A stretch of 64,000 nucleotides of DNA from Burkholderia sp. TSV86. Its GTDB lineage: Bacteria; Pseudomonadota; Gammaproteobacteria; Burkholderiales; Burkholderiaceae. The notes beneath the pieces were generated by a model, which had not been told where the DNA came from, did no database searches, and worked only from the letters and a program-made list of their open reading frames with translations. The stretch spans positions 62,001-126,000 of the forward strand of contig NZ_LOWB01000070.1 in assembly GCF_001522865.1 (NCBI RefSeq). Reading direction: 5' to 3'. Shown in pieces: positions 3,791 through 63,097 of the stretch (the stretch's first letter is position 1; every line of letters begins with the position of its first letter). The position numbers were made by a program, and so were the translations under genes.

Positions 3791-5236
3791 ATTCAGTTAT
3801 CCTATTTAAATTGGACAAAGTTCGTTGGACAAGCACATTCCAACTTTCCATTCCCCCCGATTGATCAACCGAAGGGCACAGACGCGTAACCGCTCATGCT
3901 GACGCCGGAACGTGATCAGTACGGGCGGCACCGTGCCCGGTCGTATTCCTGCGACCGAGGTGAAAGACTTTCGGATCGTTTCCGATACCTGACCTGCCGG
4001 CGGAGATAAAACCGGCAGGCTCCGAGCCAAAGTGGATGGCGATACCTCACCCTTGCCGAATATCTACGGCAAAAAACAGTCTCCGATATCGCATTTAAAT
4101 AGACAAATAACTACGTGTAGACATTCATGATGGCCGACCTTTTCGTTTATTTAAAATCGGTAAACAAGCTGAATTCTTTCACGCACACTTGCTCGTGAAT
4201 TTCAAGAGCGACTGATTATTGCTTGGCAGTTATCACTCTAAGAAACGACATTCCGTTCGCAGCGTTCGATGGAGCGGCGCGATCGATGCACTCCCTATCC
4301 AGCACAGCCAGCGCACTAAGCCTTTCCCGCACCAAACGTCACCCGATCTTTGGATAGACATACTTCGCAAAATCTCGGAATGAAATATGAATACATTAGA
4401 TTTCAAAAAATTACAAATCCACCGACACATTGAAATCGATTCATTGACAATCACGCAAATAAAATTCCATGGGCTTCCAAGGAAGCGCTAATGTGGGCGC
4501 CGGCGTACCAATAAGAGTTGGCTTCCCATAGCGCTGCCAGGCCGGCTAAATCGCGGAAGATGGTGCGCACGCAGTCGGCCAGTACGGCATCGAACACGAC
4601 ATCCTGCCGCAGAAACGCCGAGTCACGGCCGCTGCGCAACACTTTTCCTGCGCCTGCCTTGAGGGCCAGAAGGAATCATCACCGATCAACTGTCGTTACC
4701 CGGCCACGAAGACAGCACCTCCGAAGCCGGCAAATATCCAGCACGTGTCGTCAAATCTGCGCCGGCCAGATCGACTGCAACAACCGAAAGCCTTTGACCG
4801 TCATAGAACGATTTTGGCTTTTACCCCCCTTTTCCGAGGCGTTTAAAAACCAAACGCCTACAGTTCCCAAGGATTACATTCGATTTATTGGCAATTATTT
4901 TCGATATAAGAAATTATGAATTTCGGATGCGAAATATACGATATATCTCAATGTGAAAATTTGATGATTCACGGCTTCCTTTTCAAAATTTTGCCGTATA
5001 TATTCGACGACAAGTTGATGCAGTGGAGCCTGCATGCTTCCCCGCAAAAACAAGGCTTTGTTTAGCGAAAAAATAAACAAGAGGGCCATCGATTTTGAAT
5101 ATATTCAATTAATTTATCGCAACACCTCTCAAGTACTTAGCGTTATCTCATTTCGTCGTTGATTAACGACGAAGGGCTCTTATTGCCGGTGAATTTATGT
5201 GGAGCCGATCCACCTTATTTCATTCGAGGTCTCAGT
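3791..5236. other. 1.45-kb largely noncoding, partly AT-rich spacer between two protease genes
   Basis: No convincing intact gene. It holds a hairpin at 3993-4019 (arms CCTGCCGG/CCGGCAGG) upstream of the metzincin gene. A GC-rich open stretch on the minus strand at about 4451-4675 is stopped at both ends and encodes about 75 residues in ordinary codon use; it may be the tail of a decayed gene, but I do not recognise it. From about 4810 to 5236 the DNA is strongly AT-rich, unlike the flanking genes. GAGG at 5226-5229 is the ribosome binding site of the next gene. Confidence 0.5.
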
Positions 5237-7453
5237 ATGCGGATAATCGTTCATACGATTCGCTATCTATATTTGACCGGGGCACTGGCGCTTGCCGCCT
5301 GCGGCGGTGACGATGGCGGCGTGGGCGGCTCGCCTACCCTGCTCGGCTCCGCACATAACCCGGCGGCGAACTCCGTCACCGCCCAACCCGTCGCGGAAAA
5401 TCCGGCGGCCAATCCCGTTACCGCCACCCCCATCGCTCAAACGCCGGCAAATAAAAGTACCAAGCCCGTCGAGTTGCCTGACACGGTCATGCCGCTCAAC
5501 TACCGGCTCTGGTTCCGCCCGAACGCCGACTTGAACCAGTTCGACGGACGCGCCGATGTCGAGATCAAGGTGCTCAAACCGGTTGACGCGATCGTGGTCG
5601 CAGCTCATCGGCTCCAGTTCATCAACGGCAAAACCACATTGCAGCCGGGAAACGTACAACTGATCGCGACACCTCAAAACAAGGGCGATTACTATCAACT
5701 TCGCCCGGCAAATGGCTCAATCGCGCCCGGCAACTATTCGCTGCACATGGAATGGCAAGGCATCATCAATTTCATGTCGCAGGGTGACCCTACAAAGGGC
5801 ACTGTCGGCAGTTGCGACAACGATCCATATCCTGGCTGCTCGGCCGCCGAAGGCGTGTTCCGCGTAGACCTGAAGGGCACCGACGGCAAGACGAGCGGCG
5901 CGATCCTGACACAGGGCGAAACCGACCTGGCTCGGCAGTGGTTCCCCGGCTGGGACGAGCCGGCGTTCCGCCCGACCTACGAGGTGACGGCCGAGGTGCC
6001 TCAGGCATGGCGAGTTGTGTCCAATGCGGCGGAGAAGCCCGCCGCAAACGTTGGCGGCGGCTACAAACTGGTGTCGTTCGAGAAGACTCCGCCAATGCCG
6101 TCGTACCTGCTGTTCTTCGGTGGCGGCCTGTTCGACGTGCTCGAGGACGATTTCACGAGCCCCCTGCCCGACGGCAAGGGGCTGCATCTGCGCATCTTCA
6201 CGCCGCCCGGCATGCGTGACTGGGCCAAGCCCGCGATGGAGCGCACCAAGCAGGCGCTCAACTTCTACTACCAATACACCGGCATTGCGCTGCCGCTCAC
6301 CAAGTTCGACACCGTCGCGGCCAACGACGCATTCAAAGCCCAGAAGAATCTGAACTTCGGCGGCATGGAGAACTGGGGGGCGATTCTCGAATTTGCCGAC
6401 GATATCTTGCCCAAGCCCGGCGAACCAATGTCCACCTTTGGAGACGAGGTGCTAACACACGAAATCGCGCATCAATGGTTCGGCGATCTCGTGACCGCCG
6501 ACTGGTGGGACAACGTTTGGCTTAACGAATCGTTCGCGACGTACTTCGAGACTCGCACCACAATCCAGTTCTTCCCGGACAAATTCAACTGGATCGATGA
6601 CGTCAGCGATCGCTACGGCGTGATTGAAGCGGACATCAGCTCGAACGCCTACCCGATCGCACCGAACTTCAACGCGTGGGGGTCGAACGACTTCGTGATC
6701 GGCGGCTCCACGTTCGTCTACAGAAAAGGCGGCCACGTGCTGAAGATGCTCGAGGGCTTCATCGGCGATGAAGCGATGCGCAAGGGGCTGCGGCAGTATC
6801 TGACCGACTATTCGTTCGGCAACGGCACGCCAAAGCGTCTGTGGGACGCGCTGTCGAAAGCGAGCGGCCAGCCTATCGGCGCGATCGGCGACAGCTACGT
6901 GCGTCAGACCGGCGTGCCCCTGCTGTCGCTCGACACGCAGTGCGATCTTACGAAAAACCAAAATATCGTAACGATCAAGCAAGCGCCGTTTCCGAACAAG
7001 AACGCGTACCCAGGCACGCAATGGACTGTACCCGTGACGCTCGCCTATGGCGACAGTCTCGTCAATCGCAAGACGCTCGTACTGAAGGACACGCAGGCAC
7101 AGATCCGTCTGAATGGCTGCTCGGCCGTGCTCGTCAACCCGACGGGCCACGACTACTACGTGACGAACTATGCCGACGCCGCATGGAGCGCGCTGCTCAC
7201 GCAGCTTAATCGATCGACGGATCCGGTCCTGCTGCAAAGTCTCAAGAGCGAAGCGGCGCTGCTAGTCAACTCGAACCTCGCGCCACAGACACGCTTGACG
7301 AGCATCGAGTCAATCAACTCACCGGCCGCGATGTCGCTGCGTCAGCTGCCGCCCAGGAGTGCGCTGCCGTCCCCGGCCGCGACGCCGCAGAGGGTGCACC
7401 CAATGCTGCGTTACCAGGGTGAATTCAAACTCCGGCGACAACACAGTGAGTGA
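5237..7453 (+). CDS. M1-family zinc aminopeptidase, predicted lipoprotein
   Basis: An aminopeptidase predicted to be lipid-anchored. The ATG at 5237 is chosen because GAGG lies 7 bp upstream and because it gives a signal peptide ending in a lipobox (LALAAC, Cys22); the frame is open further upstream but that part is not signal-like. After a low-complexity Ala/Pro/Asn linker (about 35-75) come the M1 beta domain and catalytic domain: GGMEN at 375-379 (exopeptidase motif, GxMEN type) and HEIAH-x18-E with zinc ligands H408, H412, E431 and general base E409. After about residue 640 the sequence stops looking like a folded M1 helical domain and ends in a Pro/Ser-rich tail. This may be natural shortening or an old frameshift. 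Confidence 0.9.
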   Translation: MRIIVHTIRYLYLTGALALAACGGDDGGVGGSPTLLGSAHNPAANSVTAQPVAENPAANPVTATPIAQTPANKSTKPVELPDTVMPLNYRLWFRPNADLNQFDGRADVEIKVLKPVDAIVVAAHRLQFINGKTTLQPGNVQLIATPQNKGDYYQLRPANGSIAPGNYSLHMEWQGIINFMSQGDPTKGTVGSCDNDPYPGCSAAEGVFRVDLKGTDGKTSGAILTQGETDLARQWFPGWDEPAFRPTYEVTAEVPQAWRVVSNAAEKPAANVGGGYKLVSFEKTPPMPSYLLFFGGGLFDVLEDDFTSPLPDGKGLHLRIFTPPGMRDWAKPAMERTKQALNFYYQYTGIALPLTKFDTVAANDAFKAQKNLNFGGMENWGAILEFADDILPKPGEPMSTFGDEVLTHEIAHQWFGDLVTADWWDNVWLNESFATYFETRTTIQFFPDKFNWIDDVSDRYGVIEADISSNAYPIAPNFNAWGSNDFVIGGSTFVYRKGGHVLKMLEGFIGDEAMRKGLRQYLTDYSFGNGTPKRLWDALSKASGQPIGAIGDSYVRQTGVPLLSLDTQCDLTKNQNIVTIKQAPFPNKNAYPGTQWTVPVTLAYGDSLVNRKTLVLKDTQAQIRLNGCSAVLVNPTGHDYYVTNYADAAWSALLTQLNRSTDPVLLQSLKSEAALLVNSNLAPQTRLTSIESINSPAAMSLRQLPPRSALPSPAATPQRVHPMLRYQGEFKLRRQHSE

Positions 7454-15326: not shown

Positions 15327-15487
15327 TGCAGGTTCTCCTTGCAAAAACGAGTAATCAGCGCGGGACTCTCCCACACGACAACGTACACGCCGTATTCTCA
15401 AAAACGCGTTTGGCAAGCAAGGGCGCAGGCAGGACGCTCGCGCCGTCCGCTCAAACACATCCAATTTTCGTCCGATGCCGCGCCGCC

Positions 15488-15805
15488 CTATTTCTGGACG
15501 GCGTCCCGCGCCATTCGTCCGACCAGCGCGGCGAGGCCTGCGCGCGCGGCCGTCATGACCAAGCGCCGTGGCCCCAGCACCACGCATCCGACGAGTGCCA
15601 CCGCGATTGCAACGCCTGCCGATCCGCCGAGGTTCGGCAGCGTCATCGCCCGATAGCCAGCAGTATTGCCGCCCGCGGAAATCGGCCTCGTCATGTCGAT
15701 CACTCGATTCGATGAAGATAATTCGGTGCGCGTCGCGGCCATGCGGGCAAGCAGCACCCTGCGTTGTGCTTCCGGCGAACGCTCTGCTGCTCGTCGTTTC
15801 ATCAC
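15488..15805 (-). CDS. YqjK-like protein
   Basis: A 105-residue protein with a basic, arginine-rich N-terminal half (MKRRAAERSPEAQRRVLLARMAATR) and one hydrophobic segment (about 64-80), the layout of YqjK-family proteins. Its start overlaps the end of the YqjE-like gene by 4 bp (ATGA), so the two are translationally coupled. Function in the family is unknown; the yqjDEK genes are stress/stationary-phase induced in enterobacteria. Confidence 0.7.
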   Translation of the reverse strand: MMKRRAAERSPEAQRRVLLARMAATRTELSSSNRVIDMTRPISAGGNTAGYRAMTLPNLGGSAGVAIAVALVGCVVLGPRRLVMTAARAGLAALVGRMARDAVQK

Positions 15806-52616: not shown

Positions 52617-53121
52617 CGCGGCAGCGCCCGGCGCGACGTGGCTCGCGACGGGCGCGATGCGGCGCGCGCCCGGACGCGGGTGAGCGGCCGCAGACAACAA
52701 ACCCGCGGCCGGCGGATTCACGGCGGGCCGCGTCGCCGCAGGCCGCGCCGGCATGCGAAACACACGCAGGCACTCGCTCAGCCGCCTGAAAACGAAGCGC
52801 AAACGCCTGCACGAACGCCAAGCGCCCCGCTGCCGCCCGCGCGATGGCTAGCCGCCACGGCCACTGCGCGCCCAGGCGGCGTGCGCGGAAAATCGATCGC
52901 CTGCCACGCGACGCAGATCGCGGACAGCACGAAATCCGTGCGCAGCACCGCCGCGCACCCCGCACCCTTCCCGCGCCGCTTCCCTTCCTTCGCATCCGCC
53001 TCAAATTGTCAGATTTATCAAGATGTTGCCGTCATTTTCAGACGAAACTATTACTTATTAATTACAATTACATTCCTTCCAACCTCCTCTGGCCGCCCGA
53101 CGCACGCGATAGCCTCCCCTC
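52617..53121. other. Intergenic region upstream of the orphan PBP gene
   Basis: About 505 bp. The first ~380 bp are GC-rich without a supported gene; from about 53000 an AT-rich segment (TTATTAATTACAATTACATTCC) probably holds the PBP promoter. Confidence 0.4.
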
Positions 53122-54891
53122 ATGCGCCTGAAGAAGAAATCGACCTCGTCCTCCGATCCGTACCTCGCCGTCGCCAAAAACCCGATGCTGGCATCGAGCC
53201 TGCCGATGTGGCGCTCGAAACTTGTCGTGATCCTGGTCTTTGCCGGGTTCGCCGCGCTGATCGGCCGCGCGTTCTGGGTCCAAGTCGCCAACCAGGATTT
53301 CTATGTCGGACAAGGCCAGAAACGCTATCAGCGGACCATCGAGCTGGGCGCGATGCGCGGCAGCATCGTCGATCGCAACGGCGCGCTGCTCGCCGTGAGC
53401 CTGACGACCTATGAAATCTGGGCGAATCCCAAGCAGGTCGACGAAGCCGCTTACGCGCCGCTCGCGAAGCTGCTCGACATGCCGCTCGCCGAAGTGCGGC
53501 GGCGGCTGACGAGCGAGCGCTCGTTCGTGCTGCTCAAACGCCAAATCGATCCGGAAACGGCTGCCCGGATCGAGAAACTCGACGTCGACGGCATCACACA
53601 AATCGCCGATTCGAAGCGCTTCTATCCGGAAGGCGAATCGGCCGCGCACGTCGTCGGCTTCACGAACATCGAGGATCGCGGGCAAGAAGGCGTCGAGCTT
53701 GCCGCGAACGCACGCCTGTCCGGCACCGCGGGCGAGCGCCAGGTGATTCGCGACCGGCTCGGCCGGATCATTTCCGATACCCGTCCGCTCGTGCCGGCGC
53801 AGCACGGCGCGACGATCGAGCTGACGATCGACCGCCGCATCCAGCAACTCGCATATGCGCAACTGAAGTCGGCCGTTATCGCGAACCACGCGCAAGGCGG
53901 CAGCGTCGTCGTGCTGGACGCGAAAAACGGCGAGATCCTCGCGCTCGCGAACTATCCGACGTTCGATCCGAACGATCGCGCGCGCCTGACCGGTCAGCAA
54001 TTGCGCAATCGCGCGGTAATCGACACGTTCGAGCCTGGCTCGACGATCAAGCCGCTCGTCGTCGCACTGTCGATCGACGCGGGCAAAGTGCGGCCGCAAA
54101 CGGTGATCGATACGTCGCCCGGCTCGTACAGGATCGGGCCCGCCGTAATTCACGACACGTCGAACCACGGCGCGATCACCGTCGCACAGGCGTTACAGAT
54201 GTCGAGCAACATTGCGCTCGCGAAGCTCGCGCTCAACCTGCCTGCGGAGACGATCTGGAACAAGTATCAGGAATACGGAATCGGCCGCGCGCCGGAGCTG
54301 ACGTTTCCAGGCGTCGCATCGGGCCGGCTGCGCCCGTACAAGCGCTGGCGGCCGATCGAGCAGGCGACGATGGCTTACGGCTACGGGCTGTCGACGTCGC
54401 TGCTGCAAATCGCGCAGGTCTACACCGCGTATGCGGGCGACGGCACGTTGCATCCGGTGTCGCTGCTGAAGACGTCGGCCGATGCGCAACCCGACGCCGC
54501 GCACCGCGGCCATCGCGTGGCATCGCCCGCCACCGCGGCCGCGATCCGCTCGATGCTTGAAATGGCGGTCGGCCAGGGCGGAACTGGACGCGCGGCGCGT
54601 GTCGACGGCTACCGGATCGGTGGCAAGACGGGGACGGCGCGCAAGCAAGTCGGCGCGTCGTATGCGAAGGGCAAATACCGCGCGCTGTTCGCCGGCATGG
54701 CGCCGATGAGCGACCCGCGCCTGATCGTCGCGGTGATGATCGACGAGCCGAGCGGCAAAGGCTATTACGGCGGGACGGTCGCCGGTCCGGTGTTTTCTTC
54801 GGTGACGAGCGGCTCGCTGCAATTGCTCGGCGTGCCGCCGGACGCGCCGGCCGGCAACGACAAAGCAGCATCCGGAAAACCGAAGGCGTAA
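53122..54891 (+). CDS. Class B penicillin-binding protein, FtsI/PBP3-like D,D-transpeptidase outside the dcw cluster
   Basis: A 589-residue membrane-anchored transpeptidase. A short cytoplasmic tail and TM helix (about 33-52) precede the non-penicillin-binding pedestal (RGSIVDRNGALLAVS is box 1). The transpeptidase domain has S307-T-I-K310 (GSTIKP), S361-S-N363 and K502-T-G504 (GGKTGT), a full active site. It resembles FtsI but has no mraW/ftsL/murE neighbours, so it is an extra copy. Burkholderia species carry such additional PBP3-type genes, targets of ceftazidime. Role: septal or condition-specific peptidoglycan synthesis (inference). Confidence 0.92.
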   Translation: MRLKKKSTSSSDPYLAVAKNPMLASSLPMWRSKLVVILVFAGFAALIGRAFWVQVANQDFYVGQGQKRYQRTIELGAMRGSIVDRNGALLAVSLTTYEIWANPKQVDEAAYAPLAKLLDMPLAEVRRRLTSERSFVLLKRQIDPETAARIEKLDVDGITQIADSKRFYPEGESAAHVVGFTNIEDRGQEGVELAANARLSGTAGERQVIRDRLGRIISDTRPLVPAQHGATIELTIDRRIQQLAYAQLKSAVIANHAQGGSVVVLDAKNGEILALANYPTFDPNDRARLTGQQLRNRAVIDTFEPGSTIKPLVVALSIDAGKVRPQTVIDTSPGSYRIGPAVIHDTSNHGAITVAQALQMSSNIALAKLALNLPAETIWNKYQEYGIGRAPELTFPGVASGRLRPYKRWRPIEQATMAYGYGLSTSLLQIAQVYTAYAGDGTLHPVSLLKTSADAQPDAAHRGHRVASPATAAAIRSMLEMAVGQGGTGRAARVDGYRIGGKTGTARKQVGASYAKGKYRALFAGMAPMSDPRLIVAVMIDEPSGKGYYGGTVAGPVFSSVTSGSLQLLGVPPDAPAGNDKAASGKPKA

Positions 54892-54953
54892 CCTCGGCCG
54901 GCGCGCGGCGCATCCGCCAGATCGCACCGCCGCATTGACTGGGCCATCGGACG

Positions 54954-55427
54954 TCAGCCGATCCGCTTCGCGAAAAACGTCATCGCCTGCGGATCGTGCG
55001 CGTCGCCGATCGTCGCGAGTTCCGCATAGCCGCATCGAAGATAAAATCCGGGCGCTTGAAACCGGTACGTATGCAGCCACACGTGCGACACACCCTTCTC
55101 GCGCGCCCACGCCTCGGCGTGCCGCAGCAGCCGCTCGCCGACACCGCGCCCCCTGAAGCATTTATCGACGTGGATCAAATCGACGTAGAGCCGGCCATAC
55201 AACAGACTGCCGGTTATGCCGCCGGCCACGGCTCCATCCGTGCCGACGAGCGCGGCGACTTCGAGCGTGCATTCGTCGTGCGGCCGGCCCCCGTCAGCCG
55301 CATCGCACTTCAAACGCTCGAGCAGCCGCGCGCGCAAGCCCACGCTCGAACCGTCCACGAGCCGCACGGCGACGCCCGCGTCTTGCGCCGCCGCCACAAG
55401 CGTCACCCATGCGCCAGGCGGCTTCAC
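54954..55427 (-). CDS. GNAT-family N-acetyltransferase, last gene of the cyclitol operon
   Basis: A 157-residue GNAT. Motif A with the acetyl-CoA P-loop is DLIHVDKCFRGRGVGERLLRHAEAWAREKG (RGxGVG), followed by the motif B strand HVWLHTYRFQAPGFYLRCGYAEL. The ATG overlaps the aminotransferase stop by 4 bp, so the two are coupled. In this operon it could acetylate the amino-cyclitol made by the preceding enzymes, either as the final tailoring step or as self-protection; this is inferred from context. An in-trans housekeeping role is the alternative. Confidence 0.88.
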   Translation of the reverse strand: MKPPGAWVTLVAAAQDAGVAVRLVDGSSVGLRARLLERLKCDAADGGRPHDECTLEVAALVGTDGAVAGGITGSLLYGRLYVDLIHVDKCFRGRGVGERLLRHAEAWAREKGVSHVWLHTYRFQAPGFYLRCGYAELATIGDAHDPQAMTFFAKRIG

Positions 55428-56656
55428 GATGCCGAAAGAATCGCGTCGCGAAGCGTGCGCGCACGCGCGTCGATCGTCTCGTCGTCATCCTGGACCGAGA
55501 TCCCGAAGCCCGCGCCGAGGTATCGGTCCGACACGCCGATCGATATGCCGACCGAGCGACTGAGCAGATCGTCGGTCCGGGTAAGCGAAGGAAATGTGCC
55601 GAGCGCCGGATCGCCCGCGTAATGCCGATGAAACACCGCCGACGATTTCCCGCGATCGCCAAGCCGATGCAATTGCGACATATTCCGGTAGTAATGCCGG
55701 CCCGAATCGTCGAGCGTCTTCGAACCGAGCGTCGTGGCGAGGCGCTGCGCCTGCTCGCGTTCCGCGCAGGTCAGCACCAGCACCGTCGCGCAATCGCCCG
55801 CTTCGTCGTTCAATCGGCGCGGCCGGATCGGGCAGCCGCCCGGCAGCGCGAGCCGGCTTAGCAGCGCCGATTTCGCGCGGCGCGTCGCGGCGAGCACCCG
55901 ATCGAGCTTCGCGATCTGCGCGACCGCCACCGCGCCGGCAAGCTCCGCCATGCGCAGATTGAGCCCGAACAGGATATCGCCGTCGCCGGTGTCGCGGCGC
56001 AGCGGGAACCAACCCTGATCCTGAAACGCGTATGCACGCTGGTACAAATGCGGATCGTCGGTGATGACGAGCCCGCCTTCGCCCGACGTGATCACCTTGA
56101 ACGGATTCAGCGAGAATGCGCCGATATCGCCGTGCGCGCCCAACCGCCGCCCCTGAAAACTGCCGCCGCACGCCTGCGCGACATCCTCGACGATCTTCAG
56201 CCCGTGACGCCGCGCGAGCGCGCCTAGCGCATGCATGTCGCACGCCGCGCCGAGCATGTGAACCGGCATGATCGCCTTTGTCTTGCTCGTGATCTTGCGT
56301 TCGACGTCAGCCGGATCGATCGTCAGCGTATCGTCGATTTCCGCGAGCACGGGCGTCGCGCCGCTCAGCACGATGCTGCCGATCGACGCGACGAACGTGT
56401 ACCCCGGCACGATCACCTCGTCTCCCGGTCCGACGCCAAGCGCGGCGAGACTCGTGATCAGCGCGGACGTCCCGCTGTTGACGGCGATCGCATGCCGCAC
56501 GCCGGCAAGCGACGCGAATGCCTCTTCGGTCTGCCGGACGAACGACGTGAAGTTCGGCACGTCGTATGCGAAACGCGTCAGGCCCCACGTATCGAGCACT
56601 TGGTTGACGTTGTCCCGCTCTTCGTCGCCCAAAAAGGAATATCCCGGTCCTGCCAT
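55424..56656 (-). CDS. DegT/DnrJ/EryC1/StrS-family PLP aminotransferase
   Basis: A 410-residue PLP enzyme of the sugar/cyclitol aminotransferase family. PLP-binding features: SGTSALITSLAALGVGPGDEVIVPGYTFVAS near the N-terminus, D158 (VEDVAQACGG) facing the pyridine nitrogen, and K187 in FSLNPFKVITSGEGG. The FxxxKxxTSGEGG form is nearer the AHBA-synthase/StsC-like side than the classical HPTKN form. AGGAG lies upstream of ATG 56656. It follows the GMC oxidoreductase by 31 bp and overlaps the GNAT gene. Expected role: transamination of an oxidised (keto) cyclitol. Confidence 0.9.
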   Translation of the reverse strand: MAGPGYSFLGDEERDNVNQVLDTWGLTRFAYDVPNFTSFVRQTEEAFASLAGVRHAIAVNSGTSALITSLAALGVGPGDEVIVPGYTFVASIGSIVLSGATPVLAEIDDTLTIDPADVERKITSKTKAIMPVHMLGAACDMHALGALARRHGLKIVEDVAQACGGSFQGRRLGAHGDIGAFSLNPFKVITSGEGGLVITDDPHLYQRAYAFQDQGWFPLRRDTGDGDILFGLNLRMAELAGAVAVAQIAKLDRVLAATRRAKSALLSRLALPGGCPIRPRRLNDEAGDCATVLVLTCAEREQAQRLATTLGSKTLDDSGRHYYRNMSQLHRLGDRGKSSAVFHRHYAGDPALGTFPSLTRTDDLLSRSVGISIGVSDRYLGAGFGISVQDDDETIDARARTLRDAILSAS

Positions 56657-56687
56657 GTCGTTAGCTCCTCTAATGATGGAATGGGGT

Positions 56688-58196
56688 TCAGCCGCCGGCC
56701 AGCGATTCGGCCGCGAGCATCGCGAGCGCCATGATCGGCGCGCACGTGTTCGCCCTCGTGATCGACGGAATCACCGATCCGTCGACGATCCTGACGTTGT
56801 CCAGGCCGATGACCTTGAAGTCCGGCGCGACCACCGCGTCGGCGCCGCGCCCCGCCTTGCAGGTGCCGACCGGATGAAATTGCGTGTGCGCGTGCGCGCG
56901 GCAGAAGCGCCGGATCGCGTCGCCCTCCCGCAATCGGTCGAAATCCATGCCCGTCGTGCCGGCAAGCGCCGACAACCGCGGATGGCCGACGATCTCGCGG
57001 CAGATCGACACGCCGCTGGCGAGCACCGCGAGATCGCGCTCGTCGCTCAGATAAGCGGGATCGATACTGATTCGCAGCCGGCCCGCCACACGCCGGATAC
57101 CAACCCGGCAGCGGCTCGCCGGCAAGCCGACCGACGGCCCAAGCGAAAATCCGCCGCCGATGTCGCCGCCGCGGCTCAAGCCGATGATCGGCGCGAACGC
57201 AAGCTGCGTCGACGACTGCTCGGCCGATGCCGGCGTATTCAGAAAACCGCCGACTTCACCGAGATTCGACGTGCGCGCAACGGGCGCGCTGGTGAGCGAC
57301 CGGACGGACAACGTCACCTGCACGTGATCGTGCAAATTCGCGCCGACACCTTCGAGCGCATGCGCGATCGGAATGTCCGCCGCGCGCAACGCGCACGCGG
57401 GACCAACGCCCGAGCGCAACAGAATGGCGGGCGAGCCGATCGTGCCCGCACACAGAATCGCCTCGCGTTCAACGCGGACCGGCTGCGCGCCGTCCATGCA
57501 CTCGACGATCACTTGCCGCGCGCTGCGGCGGTCGAATCCCAGCCGCTCGACCCGGCAATGCGTGAGCATCGTGAAATTCGGCCGCGCCAACGCTCTTGCC
57601 AGGCAAGTCCGCGCGGGAAACGAACGCAAGCCGCCGCGCTGCATCACGTGGTATCGGCCCACTCCCGGCCGCGCGCACACGTCGACCATCTCGCGGCACG
57701 GCAAGCCGAGCGTCTGCGCGACATCGAGGAATGCTTCGCAGAAAGGATGCAACGACGTCGGCCGCTCGACCGACACGATCTCGCCGCTCCGTTGCTCGAA
57801 CCGCTCGAAAAAGCGCTGCAGGCTCGCCCAACCCCACGAAGGCGCAACCTCGTCCGCCCAGCGCGCGAAATCACCCGGATGGCCGCGAACGTACACCATC
57901 GCATGCATTGCCGCCGAGCCGCCGACCATCTTGCCGCGCGGCCAAGCGAGCGCGCGATTCCCGAGCGCCGGCTGCGGCTCGGTTCGATGTGCCCAATCGT
58001 GCGCCGAATCGATCAGCGCCGGCCAGCGGCTCGGCGTGAGCACGTCTTCGCAGGCTGACAGATCGTCGCCCGCCTCCAGCAACAGCACGCTCACCGAAGG
58101 ATCGCGCGACAGGCGCTCGGCGACGATGCAGCCGGCCGGTCCTGCGCCGACGATCACGTAATCGTAGACAGGCGCCACGGCGTCGTTCAGTAGCAC
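56688..58196 (-). CDS. GMC-family FAD-dependent oxidoreductase (choline dehydrogenase-like)
   Basis: A 502-residue flavoenzyme. The ADP-binding fold YDYVIVGAGPAGCIVAERL is at the N-terminus, the GMC signatures include WPRGKMVGGSAAMHAMVYVRG and the second ILCAGTIGSPAILLRSG, and the catalytic His lies in QFHPVGTCKAGRGADAVVAPDF. GTG at 58196 is the start, with GGAGG 6-7 bp upstream; it overlaps the SDR gene by 10 bp. GMC enzymes oxidise alcohols to carbonyls with FAD. Here it would supply the ketone for the aminotransferase. A choline dehydrogenase role is unlikely given the operon. Confidence 0.9.
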   Translation of the reverse strand: MLLNDAVAPVYDYVIVGAGPAGCIVAERLSRDPSVSVLLLEAGDDLSACEDVLTPSRWPALIDSAHDWAHRTEPQPALGNRALAWPRGKMVGGSAAMHAMVYVRGHPGDFARWADEVAPSWGWASLQRFFERFEQRSGEIVSVERPTSLHPFCEAFLDVAQTLGLPCREMVDVCARPGVGRYHVMQRGGLRSFPARTCLARALARPNFTMLTHCRVERLGFDRRSARQVIVECMDGAQPVRVEREAILCAGTIGSPAILLRSGVGPACALRAADIPIAHALEGVGANLHDHVQVTLSVRSLTSAPVARTSNLGEVGGFLNTPASAEQSSTQLAFAPIIGLSRGGDIGGGFSLGPSVGLPASRCRVGIRRVAGRLRISIDPAYLSDERDLAVLASGVSICREIVGHPRLSALAGTTGMDFDRLREGDAIRRFCRAHAHTQFHPVGTCKAGRGADAVVAPDFKVIGLDNVRIVDGSVIPSITRANTCAPIMALAMLAAESLAGG

Positions 58197-58930
58197 GATG
58201 CACCTCCATCTATGCCGACGATCTGGCCATTGATGAACGAAGCGCCGGACGAAAACAGGAACATCACCGTCTGCGCGACCTCGTCCTCCGTACCGATGCG
58301 CCCGAGCGGAATGCGCGACGGCCAGGCGTTCGCGTCGGCGCTGTCGACGAGGCTGCGGCGGTACATGTCCGTATCGATCGGCCCCGGCGCGATGCCGTTC
58401 ACCCTGACACCCGCCGGCCCGGCCTCGAGCGCGGCCGCTTTGGTCAGCGCCGCCCCCGCCGCCTTCGATGCCGCATAGATGCCGACGCCGGAAAATACCG
58501 TGCGGACCGCATGAATCGAATGGTTATTAACGATGACGCCCTGCCCCGCGCTCGTCATGCCGGCCAGTTGGAACCGCAAGTTCGCCCACAGGCCGAACAC
58601 GTTCGTATCGAAGCAGCGCCTCACCGCGTCGGCGTCGATCGTCGCGAGCGAGCCGGCGGCGGCAATGCCGGCATTGTTGAATGCATACGCGATGCGGTGC
58701 TGGCCGGCGAGCCGCTCGTACTCGCGCTCCAGCGCCGCGAAATTCGAAACGTCGACCTGACGGTAGAAGCACTCGCCCGGGCCTTCGGAGAGCGCATGCA
58801 CGAGCGCCTCGCCCGCGCGCGCGTCCCGCCCCCACGCATAAACGATCCAGCCGGCATGCACCGCATGACGGGCGACAGCGGCGCCGATCCCCCGCGTCCC
58901 CCCTGTAATCAGCAGAATCGGCGCCGTCAT
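58187..58930 (-). CDS. Short-chain dehydrogenase/reductase of the cyclitol operon
   Basis: A 247-residue classical SDR. The TGGTRGIG cofactor loop (about 9-16), the NNAG motif, catalytic Ser in VNNHSIHAV and YAASK (Tyr/Lys) are intact, and the C-terminus GQIVGIDGG is typical. The ATG overlaps the cyclase stop by 4 bp; the GTG of the GMC gene lies inside its end. It probably acts on a hydroxyl or keto group of the cyclitol. Whether it oxidises or reduces, and with NAD or NADP, cannot be told here. Confidence 0.9.
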   Translation of the reverse strand: MTAPILLITGGTRGIGAAVARHAVHAGWIVYAWGRDARAGEALVHALSEGPGECFYRQVDVSNFAALEREYERLAGQHRIAYAFNNAGIAAAGSLATIDADAVRRCFDTNVFGLWANLRFQLAGMTSAGQGVIVNNHSIHAVRTVFSGVGIYAASKAAGAALTKAAALEAGPAGVRVNGIAPGPIDTDMYRRSLVDSADANAWPSRIPLGRIGTEDEVAQTVMFLFSSGASFINGQIVGIDGGASCY

Positions 58931-60075
58931 GTCGCGTAGGTCTCCATGGGAAAACCCGAGCTGCGGCCCGTTGCCGAAATCCGTGACAACGCCTCGGATG
59001 CAGTGCGCATCTCGACAAGCGTCAGATCGTTGACGAATACCGCATCGCCAAGGCCGCGCATCAGAGGCAAATTCTGATTGCCGTCGCGATGAATGATCGT
59101 GTCACGTAACGCATCGGCAACGAGTTGCCCATCGCCGAAGCCGCGATGGTACAGAGGAAGCCGAAGCTTTTTCGCGATATCGAAAATCCGATCGACATCG
59201 GCTTCGGCCAACATGCCGCGCTGCCTCGACAGCAGCGCCGAATATAGACAGTCGACCGCGACGGCTTCGCCGTGCAGCAACTCGTCGATATAGGTCATCT
59301 CGATTAACGGACTGAACGAATGCCCATAGTCGACGATGCGGCGCAGATCGCGTTCCCACAGGTTCGGCTCCAGCTCTTCGGCCATCGCCATCGCCGCCAG
59401 ATGGATGATTTCCTTGACGAACGGATTCGATTCGACACCCGGCTCGAAGAATGCATGCCCATGCTCGTCAAGCAGATCGAGCAAACGGCGGCTTTTGATC
59501 AGCGCGACCTTGAATACTTCGGCCAAACCGTTCGCGACATGCCGGCCGGGCAGCGTATCGAGAAAGCCGGGACACAAATAAGTGGCGACTGCCGGATGAA
59601 ATGAGCCGAGCCTGTTTCGGTAACCAAAATGATTGACCGCCGTCTTTGCGGCAACGCTCACATCGACCATGCCAAGCAGCGTGGTCGGTACGCGAATGAA
59701 CGGAATACCGCGACGATAGAGACTGCATGCAAATCCCACCAGGTCGCAGACCACACCGCCGCCGATCACGGCCGGCGGCGAGGAACGGCGCTTCGTGCCG
59801 GACCGATTCAATATCTCCGCAATCCGCAGCGCATTGTCGATCGTCTTTTGCTCTTCATCTGCGTTGACGCAATGGCAGCGCACGCTGACCCCGGCGAAGC
59901 GAAGCGCGGCCACAAACGCGTCGGCATGCGCGCGCGGCAAACCCTGGTCGATGAAAACGCTCATCGCACCGCCATCGGCAAAAGACGCGACACCCGCCGC
60001 CATTTGTTCCAGAGAATCGTGCGATTCGATGCTGTACTCGATCTCTTGCGCCGCGCAGATTCTGATTTTCTTCAT
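58927..60075 (-). CDS. Sugar phosphate cyclase, sedoheptulose-7-phosphate type (2-epi-5-epi-valiolone synthase-like)
   Basis: A 382-residue dehydroquinate-synthase-superfamily enzyme. GGGVVCDLVGFACSLYRRGIP (105-125), RVPTTLLGMVDVSVAAKTAVNH and YRNRLGSFHP match sedoheptulose-7-phosphate cyclases; DHQS has KNMIGAF-type wording instead of the RNRLGSF here. Metal ligands E186, H252 and H268 are present. ATG 60075 with AGGGGAT upstream; a TTG at 60096 is the alternative. It opens a five-gene operon. EEVS, EVS and DDGS cannot be separated reliably by eye; the aminotransferase favours EEVS and an aminocyclitol product. Confidence 0.83.
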   Translation of the reverse strand: MKKIRICAAQEIEYSIESHDSLEQMAAGVASFADGGAMSVFIDQGLPRAHADAFVAALRFAGVSVRCHCVNADEEQKTIDNALRIAEILNRSGTKRRSSPPAVIGGGVVCDLVGFACSLYRRGIPFIRVPTTLLGMVDVSVAAKTAVNHFGYRNRLGSFHPAVATYLCPGFLDTLPGRHVANGLAEVFKVALIKSRRLLDLLDEHGHAFFEPGVESNPFVKEIIHLAAMAMAEELEPNLWERDLRRIVDYGHSFSPLIEMTYIDELLHGEAVAVDCLYSALLSRQRGMLAEADVDRIFDIAKKLRLPLYHRGFGDGQLVADALRDTIIHRDGNQNLPLMRGLGDAVFVNDLTLVEMRTASEALSRISATGRSSGFPMETYAT

Positions 60076-60728
60076 CGAAATCCCCTGCGTTTCCAAACAC
60101 CGTCATTCCCTTGAAATTCCCCTTAAATTCAAAAGGAACCAGCATTCGGGATGAGAGAAAACATCTCGACAAAATCATTCCGCCACCCCACGATAATGAC
60201 AAATATTTAAAAAATCGTCATGAAAATTTTTCGGAAATATTCAAACCACAATATGCATCGCGTATCACTTCACCATGCTCAACACACCTCATCGCAATAT
60301 TCCAGATCGATATCCGATAGTGCACATGGCCTGCACGACCACATTTTAATTGACCGAATAAATCACAAAAAAATACAAACAGAGTCTAAACACGGTCAAG
60401 AAAAAATCAAGAAAACATCACCATCAACCTATAAATCTTGGCAGGTTTACTCGGCCATTTTGTTTAAAATCCATCAATACTTATCAAATTAAAATTATTT
60501 GATTAAATTAAATTTCGAAATGCATGAATCGCCAACGGACTGTTGGCGCGGTCCGCTGCGACGGATGACTGCGGCCGATTTCCGGTTGCATACGAGCAGC
60601 TCGAACACCGGGATCGCGCCGGCGCCCGGAAGACCACCGCGATGCGGCTCCGTGGCCCGAGCGGCGTCGAAACTCTTTATCATACGAAACGCAATGAGCT
60701 GACGATGCGCGCCACTCGGGAGACGACG
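60076..60728. other. AT-rich divergent region upstream of the cyclase operon
   Basis: About 650 bp. From 60100 to 60510 the DNA is strongly AT-rich, unlike the flanking genes, and contains no supported gene; from 60520 the composition returns to GC-rich, still without a convincing frame before the ATG at 60729. It is the probable control region of the cyclase operon and a candidate silencing (H-NS/MvaT-type) target. No palindromic operator was recognised. Confidence 0.5.
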
Positions 60729-61262
60729 ATGATCCGGATTGCAATCGATATGGACGAGGTGATTGCCGACGCGTTCTCGGCAGAACTGGCCTGGTATCGA
60801 ACCACTCACCATTACGCGCTGTCGCGCACGGCTTGCATCGGCAAACCGCTCTCGGCATTCGTATCGCCCGAGCACGCGGCGATGATGGAAGCGCTGCTCG
60901 CCGACGGACGTTTTTTCGAAACGCTGCCCGTCATGCCGGGAGCGGAACACGCGCTGCGCACGCTGTCGAGCCGATTCGAACTCTTCGTGACCACCGCGGC
61001 GATGGAATATCCGAATTCGTGCGAATACAAATTCCGCTGGCTACGCCGGCATTTGCCGTTCATTGAGCCATCGAACATCGTGTTCTGCGGCGACAAAAGC
61101 ATCGTCCATGCCGATTATCTGATCGACGACAACGTTCGCCACTTTCGCCGTTTCAGCGGTCAAGGCCTGCTCTTCACCGCTCCGCACAATGCCGCTCTAG
61201 ACTGGCAGCCGCGCGTCGACGATTGGGATGCCGTCTTGCGATATTTCAGCAAGCACGGCTGA
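60729..61262 (+). CDS. 5'-nucleotidase-like HAD phosphatase (NT5C type)
   Basis: A 177-residue HAD hydrolase of the deoxyribonucleotidase (NT5C) family. The nucleophile motif is IAIDMDEVIADAF (D9, D11 by count). The helical cap, FELFVTTAAM (motif II Thr) and YLIDDNVRHF (acidic motif IV) follow. GGGAG precedes ATG 60729; the frame above is not coding-like. It is divergent from the cyclase operon, so it could dephosphorylate a pathway intermediate, but nucleotide salvage is as likely. Confidence 0.85.
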   Translation: MIRIAIDMDEVIADAFSAELAWYRTTHHYALSRTACIGKPLSAFVSPEHAAMMEALLADGRFFETLPVMPGAEHALRTLSSRFELFVTTAAMEYPNSCEYKFRWLRRHLPFIEPSNIVFCGDKSIVHADYLIDDNVRHFRRFSGQGLLFTAPHNAALDWQPRVDDWDAVLRYFSKHG

Positions 61263-61265
61263 TAC

Positions 61266-61316
61266 GCGGCTGCGGGAAGAGCCGCGCCGGTCAGACGGCA
61301 GGAGCAATTGCCGTCC
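61266..61316. terminator. Two hairpins between convergent genes
   Basis: GCGGCT (61267-61272)/AGCCGC (61281-61286) and GACGGCA (61295-61301)/TGCCGTC (61310-61316) lie between the HAD gene and the antiporter gene end. Neither has a U-run; plausible as a shared termination zone. Confidence 0.4.
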
Positions 61317-61327
61317 GATGGAGCATG

Positions 61328-63097
61328 CTAATGCGCAACCGCCTGCCTTTTATGCGCCGCATCCTTTCCCATTCGCGCGAGCACATGCTCGGTCATCCCG
61401 CGCGCCAACTCCGCCTCGCCGACGAACACCTCGCCCATCCTTTCGCTCGCGAGCAGCGCCGCTTCGTCGTCGCTGTTCGTGCATAGCGCGATTTCGAGTG
61501 GCGGATTGAGCGTGCGGGCAATTTCCACGATCTGCCGCACGTCGAACACATCCGGCAACGTAACGACGAGCATCGCCGCCCGCGCGACATGCGCCTGCAC
61601 GAGCACGATAGGCTCGATCGCGTCGCCGGACACGGCCGCGACGCCGTCTTGGCGCAGCTTCTCGACGATCTCGCGATTCTGCTCGACGACGACAAATGCA
61701 ATGCCCCGGCTGTCGAGCGCCTGCGCGATGCGCATGCCGACGCGCCCATAGCCGACGATCACCACTTGCCCCGTCAAATGAGCCTGCGGCGTGGACATCG
61801 GCAACGCCGCAAGCGGATCGTCGCGCGCCTCCAGCCGGCGCGCGAGCGCCGAGCGTTCGCGAATCCACGCGAGCGCCGGGTCGATCGCCGCGAACAGCAG
61901 CGTGTTGAGCGCGATCGACAGCAGCGCGACCGCAAGAATCAGGCTTTGCCCCTGCGTCGACAACAGGCCCAACGCGCGCCCAAGCCCCGCAAGAATGAAC
62001 GAGAACTCGCCGATCTGCGCGAGCCCCGCGCCAACCGTCAGCGCGGTATTGAGCGGATAACGGAACGCGAGCACGAGCGCCGCTGCGGCGATTGTCTTGC
62101 CGACCACGACGATCGCCGCGACTTCGAGCACGTGCAGCGGCTCGTCGATCAGCACGCGCGGATCGAACAGCATGCCCACGGAGATGAAGAACAGCACCGA
62201 GAATGCGTCGCGCAGCGGCAGCGTCTCGTCGGCCGCGCAGCGGCTGAATTCCGATTCGCGCATCATCATGCCGGCGAAAAACGCGCCGAGCGCGAACGAC
62301 ACGTCGAACAGCTTCGCCGCGCCGAACGCAACGCCCACCGCCGCCGCGATCATGCACAGCGTAAACAACTCGCGCGAGCCGGTACGCGCAACGAGCCACA
62401 GCACACGAGGGAACACGCGCTTGCCGACCACAAGCATCAGCGAGACGAACGCGGCGACTTTCATCAACGTGAGGCCGAGCGCGTGCCACAGATTGCCGCC
62501 CGCCGACGCGGCGCCGTGCGCATCGTGCGCGGCCTGCGTGCCGGCCGCGCCCGCGCCCACATCCGCGCCGCCGAGCAGCCCGGCCAGCGGCGGCAGCAGC
62601 ACCAGCACGAGCACCATCACGAGATCCTCGACGACAAGCCAGCCGATCGCGATGCGCCCGTTGACCGATTCGACGAGCCCGCGCCCTTCGAGCGCGCGCA
62701 ACAGCACCACCGTACTTGCAACCGACAGCGCAAGACCGAACACGAGCGCCCCGCCTACGTTCCATCCCCACAGCAGCGCAAGCCCCGCGCCGAGCGCCGT
62801 CGCAACGGCGATCTGCACGATCGCGCCGGGCAGCGCGATCTTGCGGACCGCCAATAGATCGCCGAGCGAGAAATGCAAGCCGACCCCGAACATCAGCAGC
62901 ATCACGCCAATTTCGGCGAGCTGCTGCGCGAGCGCGATGTCGCCGACGAAACCGGGCGTGCCCGGGCCGATCACGATGCCGGCGAGCAAATAGCCGACGA
63001 GCGGCGGCATTTTCAGCAGCGACGCGAGGTAACCGAAGATCATCGCGAGACCGAAACCGGCCGCGAGCAACGCAATCAGGCTAACGTCATGAGGCAT
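61328..63097 (-). CDS. CPA2-family monovalent cation:proton antiporter (YbaL/KefB type)
   Basis: A 589-residue inner-membrane protein. About 12-13 helices (residues 1-390) form the Na+/H+ exchanger domain, with GYLLAGIVIGPGTPGFV and LLMFGVGLHFSLGDL (antiporter motif). A linker leads to a C-terminal RCK_N (TrkA-N) domain beginning GQVVIVGYGRVGMRIAQAL (NAD-binding GxGxxG) at about 450. The RCK domain gates transport by nucleotide or thiol ligands. It is a single gene convergent with the HAD gene. K+ versus Na+ specificity is not readable. Confidence 0.93.
   Translation of the reverse strand: MPHDVSLIALLAAGFGLAMIFGYLASLLKMPPLVGYLLAGIVIGPGTPGFVGDIALAQQLAEIGVMLLMFGVGLHFSLGDLLAVRKIALPGAIVQIAVATALGAGLALLWGWNVGGALVFGLALSVASTVVLLRALEGRGLVESVNGRIAIGWLVVEDLVMVLVLVLLPPLAGLLGGADVGAGAAGTQAAHDAHGAASAGGNLWHALGLTLMKVAAFVSLMLVVGKRVFPRVLWLVARTGSRELFTLCMIAAAVGVAFGAAKLFDVSFALGAFFAGMMMRESEFSRCAADETLPLRDAFSVLFFISVGMLFDPRVLIDEPLHVLEVAAIVVVGKTIAAAALVLAFRYPLNTALTVGAGLAQIGEFSFILAGLGRALGLLSTQGQSLILAVALLSIALNTLLFAAIDPALAWIRERSALARRLEARDDPLAALPMSTPQAHLTGQVVIVGYGRVGMRIAQALDSRGIAFVVVEQNREIVEKLRQDGVAAVSGDAIEPIVLVQAHVARAAMLVVTLPDVFDVRQIVEIARTLNPPLEIALCTNSDDEAALLASERMGEVFVGEAELARGMTEHVLARMGKDAAHKRQAVAH

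Follow-up and report, generated by a model that had tools for sequence, protein, structure and literature searches.

The window, a 64,000-nucleotide stretch of the Burkholderia sp. TSV86 genome, carries a five-gene operon that we read, with a little better than even confidence, as horizontally acquired and as making a small N-acetylated C7N aminocyclitol, a carbocyclic mimic of an amino sugar. The cyclase would convert sedoheptulose 7-phosphate to 2-epi-5-epi-valiolone or to a stereoisomer close to it. Its product would be brought to the right oxidation state and stereochemistry by the SDR and the GMC flavoenzyme, DegT would turn a carbonyl into the one amine, and the GNAT would acetylate that amine. 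The presence of an aminotransferase and an N-acetyltransferase next to the cyclase suits an N-acetyl aminocyclitol; substrates, products, the order of the steps and the position of the amine are all predictions.

Organization of the insert

PBP2 and ybaL flank an insert that consists of the operon and a divergent NT5C gene. The five operon genes lie on the minus strand in the order cyclase, SDR, GMC oxidoreductase, DegT aminotransferase and GNAT, with junctions of -4, -10, +31 and -4 bp in gene order. The features are as follows.

54892..61327, no strand: whole insert, between PBP2 (53122-54891, plus strand) and ybaL (61328-63097, minus strand)
58927..60096, minus strand: putative sedoheptulose-7-phosphate cyclase, EEVS type (Pfam DHQ_synthase and DHQS_C; ValA 4p53; diagnostic residues)
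58187..58930, minus strand: SDR family oxidoreductase, 247 aa (Pfam adh_short_C2, 162 bits)
56688..58196, minus strand: GMC-family FAD oxidoreductase, 502 aa (Pfam GMC_oxred_N/C, 124/100 bits)
55424..56656, minus strand: DegT/DnrJ/EryC1/StrS aminotransferase, 410 aa (Pfam DegT, 272 bits)
54954..55427, minus strand: GNAT N-acetyltransferase, 157 aa (Pfam Acetyltransf_1, 53 bits)
60097..60626, no strand: A+T-rich spacer of 530 bp (41% G+C) that separates NT5C from the operon; presumed promoter region
60627..61262, plus strand: NT5C-family nucleotidase-like gene (Pfam NT5C, 124.5 bits), divergent from the operon and a possible accessory member

All the Pfam matches of the operon genes were above the curated cut-offs, and the DHQ_synthase match of the cyclase scored 105 bits. 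The cyclase was called from a TTG start (389 aa); an ATG at 60075, seven codons in, is equally likely (382 aa). An earlier note on this DNA had described a compact operon of five genes read in one direction with the junctions given above, and every gene and every exact junction was confirmed. The range that it had given, 54954..61262, holds the five named genes but also the NT5C-type gene on the plus strand, a sixth gene which the note did not mention. The overlaps suggest that the five genes are co-translated. Searches for promoters and terminators gave no excess over shuffled sequences: in the 6.9 kb scanned, the minus strand had two promoter-like matches where 1.4 were expected. No regulatory RNA reached the gathering score in 53000-62000.

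Distribution and genomic site

Two other genomes were found to carry all five genes in unchanged order and direction and with the four junctions preserved. One is that of Burkholderia singularis LMG 28154 (NZ_FXAN01000061), the other the MAG 'uncultured Paraburkholderia sp. isolate Vmac symbiont' (CALNWS010000001), probably from a leaf symbiont of Vangueria macrocalyx. Because both keep the junctions exactly, the arrangement is not due to chance. Gene by gene, the proteins are 89-98% identical to those of the window in B. singularis and 68-89% identical in Vmac, whose operon shares 84% DNA identity with the window. The spacer at 60097..60626 aligns end to end between the two Burkholderia, whereas the Vmac sequence is alignable with it, by eye, only across roughly the last 100 bp. 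NT5C accompanies the B. singularis operon as it does in the window, but it was not found in the roughly 26 kb around the Vmac operon. NT5C is therefore not supported as a constant member of the operon; where present, it perhaps dephosphorylates an intermediate. An ORF with a weak match to a carbamoyltransferase N-terminus follows the Vmac operon.

Among the 65 Burkholderia genomes, the cyclase was found in two and NT5C (E <= 1e-10) in three, namely the two with the operon and genome G036, which has a fragment at the same site. The 11.7-kb contig L011 contains only the cyclase, the SDR and NT5C of the insert's genes, with NT5C beside the cyclase-SDR pair. PBP2 and ybaL are 67-3170 bp apart, measured by hit edges, in 40 Burkholderia genomes that have no cyclase. 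The operon was probably acquired horizontally. Other matches of the window in the Vmac genome, at 65-78% identity, look like paralogues and give no housekeeping yardstick for the age of an exchange, so the case for exchange with Vmac is built only on how rare the operon is and where it lies. Of 72,556 plasmid records searched, 20 matched the cyclase at E <= 1e-40, none of them reaching 60% identity and 17 being from Streptomyces; the five-gene set was absent from the listed features of the five of these records that were examined, whose gene tables are incomplete.

Selection on the operon

Most of the operon genes are under purifying selection. Between the window and Vmac, dN/dS was 0.12-0.27 across the five genes and there were no premature stops. 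Whether the window was compared with Vmac or with B. singularis, no gene of the set had a higher dN/dS than the GNAT, which reached 0.79 between the two Burkholderia species, a value based on few substitutions. The GNAT is 68% identical to the Vmac protein, and its divergence is unlike that of a strongly constrained step. Intact frames and dN/dS speak for function, least so for the GNAT.

Identity of the cyclase

The best PDB relative of the cyclase is 4p53 (E 9.7e-89), which is ValA (PMC4426668). Further relatives are 5tpr (1.5e-61), DHQ synthases from 2.9e-34 and a 2-deoxy-scyllo-inosose synthase at 2e-23. In the alignment, the cyclases of the window, B. singularis, Vmac and L011 have D and H at the diagnostic columns of ValA 281 and 360, and two rows, 5tpr and Nostoc, have A and T. 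These two rows are both annotated as 3-dehydroquinate synthase; the DDGS label is our own assignment. The window cyclase is EEVS-like at 14 of 15 EEVS-versus-DDGS columns, a set of our own choosing that differs from the 14 published sites; the exception is ValA 169, where it has A as in DDGS. The 11 EEVS-type rows were chosen after the D/H check and all have both residues (StrepNBC467, with D but R, was excluded), and ValA is the only one that we take to be characterized.

The tree was a single build from 20 hand-picked rows that included no EVS or DOIS sequences. It placed the window cyclase in a clade of four (support 100/100) on a branch of 1.67. The DDGS pair (100/100) and the DHQS pair (100/99) were recovered, and the joins among ValA, DDGS, the leaf-type rows and the window's clade were unsupported. 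When the clade was held with EEVS-type, DDGS or DHQS rows, none of the placements was rejected (p-AU 0.266, 0.271 and 0.201). The EEVS-type cyclase proposed in the earlier note was therefore upheld by the match to ValA and the diagnostic residues, but the tree that was to check it did not reject a grouping with DHQS or DDGS. From the best solved relative and the diagnostic residues, the protein is most likely a sedoheptulose-7-phosphate cyclase of the EEVS type.

We consider it unlikely that the enzyme is a sugar phosphate cyclase of another specificity, resembling 5-epi-valiolone synthase or having a new stereochemical outcome, whose product would not belong to the known C7N aminocyclitols. 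The long branch to the clade and the unsupported joins would fit such an enzyme, as would 10 columns that are invariant among the 11 EEVS-type rows but not shared by any of the four clade rows; at one of these columns, ValA 169, the residue is that of DDGS. However, the EEVS-like state at 14 of the 15 columns, both diagnostic sites included, speaks against it in a comparison made without EVS sequences. A dehydroquinate or 2-deoxy-scyllo-inosose synthase paralogue that merely sits beside unrelated neighbours is very improbable. Pfam and NCBIfam do name the domain 3-dehydroquinate synthase, and the join with the two DHQS rows was among those not rejected, which is also expected if the clade is simply the deepest of the sedoheptulose-7-phosphate cyclases. 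Yet the score against the NCBIfam aroB equivalog (3-dehydroquinate synthase) was 195.5 bits, under the 305-bit cut-off, and the TSV86 genome has a stronger DHQ_synthase match elsewhere (C73; 170 versus 108 bits), so the operon cyclase need not serve shikimate synthesis. The PDB scores, the diagnostic residues and the conserved operon with DegT and GNAT also oppose this alternative.

Tailoring enzymes and the predicted product

For the SDR, no NCBIfam model was over its cut-off among the 25 listed of 224 matched, and no PDB relative was found at E <= 1e-40. The nearest solved relatives of the GMC enzyme are 3t37 (a probable dehydrogenase), 9lq0 (choline dehydrogenase) and 4ha6 (pyridoxine 4-oxidase). 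That of the DegT enzyme is 5k8b, an 8-amino-3,8-dideoxy-manno-octulosonate transaminase (E 1e-64, residues 4-373). K187 of the DegT enzyme aligns with a lysine of 5k8b, presumably the PLP lysine. The nearest PDB relative of the GNAT is 1y9w (E 1.7e-16), and weaker matches were to streptothricin/nourseothricin acetyltransferases (NCBIfam E 1.3e-11, far under the cut-off; PDB 5c82, E 8.9e-8).

The N-acetyl aminocarbasugar proposed in the earlier note is a plausible candidate product. The same note had the GMC enzyme and the SDR oxidize valiolone before transamination, a step that is not required for a ring amine: the EEVS product already bears a ring ketone and, therefore, a ring amine needs no prior oxidation. 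Going by their nearest solved relatives, the GMC and DegT enzymes could instead act as a pair on the exocyclic carbon. The GMC enzyme would oxidize the CH2OH (C7) to an aldehyde, DegT would aminate it, the GNAT would acetylate the amine and the SDR would reduce the ring ketone. The product would then be an N-acetyl-aminomethyl cyclitol and not a ring amine of the valienamine or kirkamide type. This variant is compatible with our preferred reading, and we regard it as rather unlikely. It would give the GMC gene a purpose, and the relatives of that gene include choline dehydrogenase/oxidase, alcohol oxidase and pyridoxine 4-oxidase, which oxidize primary alcohols. The alignment of DegT to 5k8b is near full-length, and the substrate of that transaminase is a terminal aldehyde. 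These solved relatives are distant, however (222 bits over 370 residues for DegT), the specificities of GMC and DegT enzymes are hard to predict, and the known C7N aminocyclitols mostly have ring amines. A further variant, also compatible with the preferred reading and quite unlikely in our estimation, makes the GNAT a self-resistance enzyme, with the free aminocyclitol as the active compound and the acetylated form stored and inactive. The faint similarity to streptothricin/nourseothricin acetyltransferases and the top dN/dS in the set would suit a protective role, but a last operon gene whose 4-bp overlap is kept in three genomes is also expected of a biosynthetic step.

Counted against the N-acetylated aminocyclitol reading as a whole were L011 with its reduced gene set, the divergence of the GNAT, the 10 columns at which the cyclase departs from the EEVS-type rows, and its long branch and unsettled position in the tree.

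Comparison with known cyclitol systems

Validamycin/acarbose-type clusters share the EEVS first step, and ValA is the nearest solved cyclase. In contrast to those clusters, the insert's six genes have no kinase, nucleotidyltransferase or (pseudo)glycosyltransferase domain in Pfam or NCBIfam, as the earlier note had said of its gene set; a pseudo-oligosaccharide pathway was rejected on the gene content of the insert. The cetoniacytone A cluster combines an EEVS, an aminotransferase and a GMC-type oxidoreductase to give an acetamido cyclitol, a possible parallel to the operon, which the earlier note had placed nearer to cetoniacytone-type logic.

More distant cyclases, with 37-39% identity to the window's over the alignment, occur in six genomes of the same family as the window. 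In stretches of 8.5-19 kb around it in these genomes (L020-L025), no match to the SDR, GMC or GNAT was found, and a DegT match was present in five of the six. The one that was Pfam-scanned, L024, holds EEVS, ROK, DegT, GH4-like, Gfo/Idh/MocA, HAD and cupin genes.

C7 cyclitols are well documented from Burkholderia leaf symbionts, one of which is linked to kirkamide, an N-acetylglucosamine analogue (PMC8599487). The kirkamide and streptol glucoside pathways share with the operon an EEVS-based cyclitol metabolism in Burkholderia, and kirkamide sets a precedent for an N-acetylated product. With these compounds known (PMC8599487) and the operon also present in B. singularis and the Vmac MAG, the earlier note's claim that this class would be little explored in the Burkholderiaceae was too strong. 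The operon is a kinase-less variant beside the already known C7 cyclitols of Burkholderia leaf symbionts.

Significance

In the portions of the literature that were searched, no description of the operon in B. singularis or its sister species was found, and 'cyclitol' and 'valiolone' have no occurrence in the main text of PMC8506256, PMC7912996 and PMC5592201. The Vmac operon may well have been described already in the leaf-symbiont papers (Kean et al. 2014; Pinto-Carbo et al. 2016; Danneels et al. 2023). Published work reports that B. singularis and a sister species have a high capacity for specialized metabolites (PMC8506256), that leaf-nodule Burkholderia are believed to protect their host plant and inhibit competitors by means of their cyclitols (PMC8599487), that endophytes of nodulated leaves are not cultivable (PMC10405798) and that B. 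singularis was isolated and grown (PMC5592201). Since B. singularis is cultivable and has the same operon as the Vmac MAG, the pathway and its product would be workable in an ordinary laboratory.

We propose only tentatively, and with some doubt, that the operon is a separate route of five enzymes, none of them a kinase, that leads to a small N-acetylated carbasugar, perhaps with the amine on the exocyclic carbon (C7), that its cyclase forms a lineage of its own, and that the operon moves between a plant symbiont and Burkholderia not known as leaf symbionts (B. singularis was recovered from patients and water). Should the predicted chemistry be right, a five-enzyme route to an N-acetylated carbasugar with no kinase or transferase would, to our knowledge, be among the simplest of its kind and would be useful for making glycosidase inhibitors. 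If the proposal is true, such Burkholderia, or a common donor, would be a reservoir that supplies cyclitol pathways to leaf symbionts.

Gene content of the operon

The source genome (5.8 Mb in 135 contigs) carries the following genes between PBP2 (53122-54891, plus strand) and ybaL (61328-63097, minus strand):

60096 down to 54954, minus strand: five-gene operon, cyclase, SDR, GMC oxidoreductase, DegT aminotransferase and GNAT, in that order
60627-61262, divergent from the operon: a sixth, NT5C-like gene

The gene order, single direction and junctions of -4, -10, +31 and -4 described in the earlier note were all found on the minus strand. The spacer between the operon and the NT5C-like gene is 530 bp long, with 41% G+C compared to 62.3% in the whole window. 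We classified the operon as a cyclitol operon of the 2-epi-5-epi-valiolone synthase (EEVS) type without kinase and transferase genes, a variant on an already known kind.

Assignment of the cyclase

PMC4426668 describes 14 fingerprint residues for these cyclases and a pair of sites by which EEVS can be told from demethyl-4-deoxygadusol synthase (DDGS). The EEVS ValA (4p53) was clearly the closest solved structure to the window cyclase (E 9.7e-89), followed by 5tpr (1.5e-61), dehydroquinate synthases (DHQS; 2.9e-34 and weaker) and a 2-deoxy-scyllo-inosose synthase (DOIS; 2e-23). With the NCBIfam aroB model the cyclase scored 195.5 bits, where 305 are required. On the DHQ_synthase domain, the genome's one other match, at contig C73, scored 170 bits, compared with 108 for the window cyclase. 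Using what we take to be the residues and position numbers of the diagnostic sites, with ValA numbering assigned via a constant offset, the ValA residues were found at both sites in the cyclases of the window, Burkholderia singularis LMG 28154, the "uncultured Paraburkholderia sp. isolate Vmac symbiont" MAG (Vmac) and a record titled Martelella alba (L011). The ValA residues were absent from 5tpr and from a gene on a Nostoc plasmid, the two rows to which we gave the DDGS label; their annotation is 3-dehydroquinate synthase. The cyclase was also EEVS-like at 14 of the 15 columns separating these two rows from 11 EEVS-type rows, which were picked after the diagnostic-site check and exclude the Streptomyces row StrepNBC467, which has the D but lacks the H.

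Ten columns invariant among the 11 EEVS-type rows were different in all four cyclases (window, B. singularis, Vmac and L011), which counts against a plain EEVS. In a 20-row tree, the four formed a clade (support 100/100, branch 1.67) that was not firmly joined to ValA, to DDGS or to the remaining EEVS-type rows, and one-clade grouping tests rejected neither the EEVS-type rows (p-AU 0.266) nor DDGS (0.271) nor DHQS (0.201). The assignment as EEVS is therefore based on scores and residues rather than on the tree; the earlier proposal of an EEVS-type cyclase was supported by the closeness to ValA, the diagnostic residues and the separating columns, and the tree tests left groupings with the DHQS or DDGS rows unrejected. 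After these tests, we lowered our main reading, an operon for an N-acetylated C7N aminocyclitol, from fairly probable to somewhat better than even, and a cyclase of other specificity, or a DHQS or DOIS, became slightly more probable.

Proposed pathway

We infer all of the chemistry from the gene families and cyclase residues observed. The cyclase would convert sedoheptulose 7-phosphate (S7P) to 2-epi-5-epi-valiolone (EEV) or a stereoisomer, the SDR and GMC enzymes would carry out redox steps, DegT would introduce the amine and GNAT would acetylate it. EEV itself bears a ring ketone and, thus, the GMC enzyme would not be needed first for a ring amine. Another possible explanation is that the amine is exocyclic, as might be suggested by the closest solved relative of DegT, the 8-amino-octulosonate transaminase 5k8b, and by those of the GMC enzyme, which include choline- and pyridoxine-oxidising enzymes. 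The closest relatives of GNAT were generic acetyltransferases, with weak matches to streptothricin/nourseothricin acetyltransferases.

Occurrence of the operon and cyclase

A pattern scan of genome contigs, whose single-sequence query reaches close relatives only, yielded 39 candidate stretches, three of them encoding cyclase relatives: B. singularis (91% identity), Vmac (83%) and L011 (65%). B. singularis is 94% identical to the window across 10 kb, and PMC5592201 gives its ANI to TSV86 as 94.40. Both B. singularis and Vmac have all five genes with identical order and junctions, at protein identities of 89-98% and 68-89% by gene, respectively; the Vmac operon DNA is 84% identical across 5.2 kb. 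Around the Vmac operon, the roughly 26 kb examined yielded no NT5C match. An ORF after that operon (L010, the Vmac stretch, 15403-15798) weakly matches a carbamoyltransferase N-terminus (E 3.4e-6), and its frame stops at 15798, short of the contig end.

L011 has consecutive cyclase, SDR and NT5C genes, and DegT matches in its genome reach at most 41% identity. The three genes are preceded, at 4775-6047, by those for a LuxR-type regulator and an autoinducer synthase, a hint of quorum control, and DAPG-hydrolase-like and mannitol-dehydrogenase genes come after them. The family of this record ("Martelella alba BGMRC 2031") includes 0.5-Mb as well as 4-5-Mb genomes among the 22 of 246 members shown. 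This mix of sizes looks enterobacterial and is not what would be expected of Aurantimonadaceae; the title of the record may be wrong.

The cyclase was present in 2 of 65 Burkholderia genomes at the set thresholds. Among other, overlapping genome sets, it was found in 8 of 398 sampled from the window's family (TSV86, B. singularis and six at only 41-43% identity), 2 of 144 from the genus of Vmac (Vmac and a genome whose cyclase is of the 42% type), 2 of 246 from the family of L011 (its own genome and one at 43%) and 4 of 369 sampled from the class (TSV86 and three at 36-41%). The stretches examined in the six family genomes had no SDR, GMC or GNAT matches. One of the six, L024, was scanned with Pfam and has a ROK-containing set unlike the window operon:

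L024, 843-7717: different cyclitol-type set of EEVS, ROK, DegT, GH4-like, Gfo/Idh/MocA, HAD and cupin genes

Stretches L020, L021, L022 and L025 were likened to this set via cyclase and DegT matches only. A longer cluster on Streptomyces clavuligerus plasmid pF1D18A (L050, 5187-13915) has an annotated S7P cyclase, ROK, DegT aminotransferase, HAD hydrolase and GNAT, and its cyclase match recurs across 16 S. clavuligerus plasmid records. PMC8599487 links C7 cyclitols, among them kirkamide and streptol, to a Burkholderia leaf symbiont and describes kirkamide as an N-acetylglucosamine analogue toxic to arthropods.

Insertion site and age

The gap between PBP2 and ybaL appears to be a site of variation. 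Measured between hit edges, it spanned 67-3170 bp in 40 Burkholderia genomes that lack the cyclase, with 27 at 700 bp or less and 13 at 2.0-3.2 kb. The 40 were 37 of the 39 same-genus genomes of a first comparison, excluding B. singularis (which has the operon) and G057 (PBP2 match only), plus G041, G016 and G024 of a second, whose other four genomes were repeats. Of 65 Burkholderia genomes, 3 gave an NT5C match: both operon carriers and G036, which has no cyclase match. In G036 the match is a fragment in two frames at the corresponding position, next to ybaL (L026, 2375-2766), and may be left over from an earlier insert. The gap in this genome also contains an SDR and a periplasmic-binding/LacI-type ORF.

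Between the window and B. singularis, dN/dS was 0.08-0.34 in four operon genes, 0.79 in GNAT (an uncertain value from few substitutions) and 0.03 and 0.09 in the flanks; between the window and Vmac, the operon genes gave 0.12-0.27. Synonymous divergence from B. singularis was 0.07-0.13 in the operon, with 0.14 for NT5C and 0.13-0.14 for the flanks; the operon is therefore probably older than the split between TSV86 and B. singularis.
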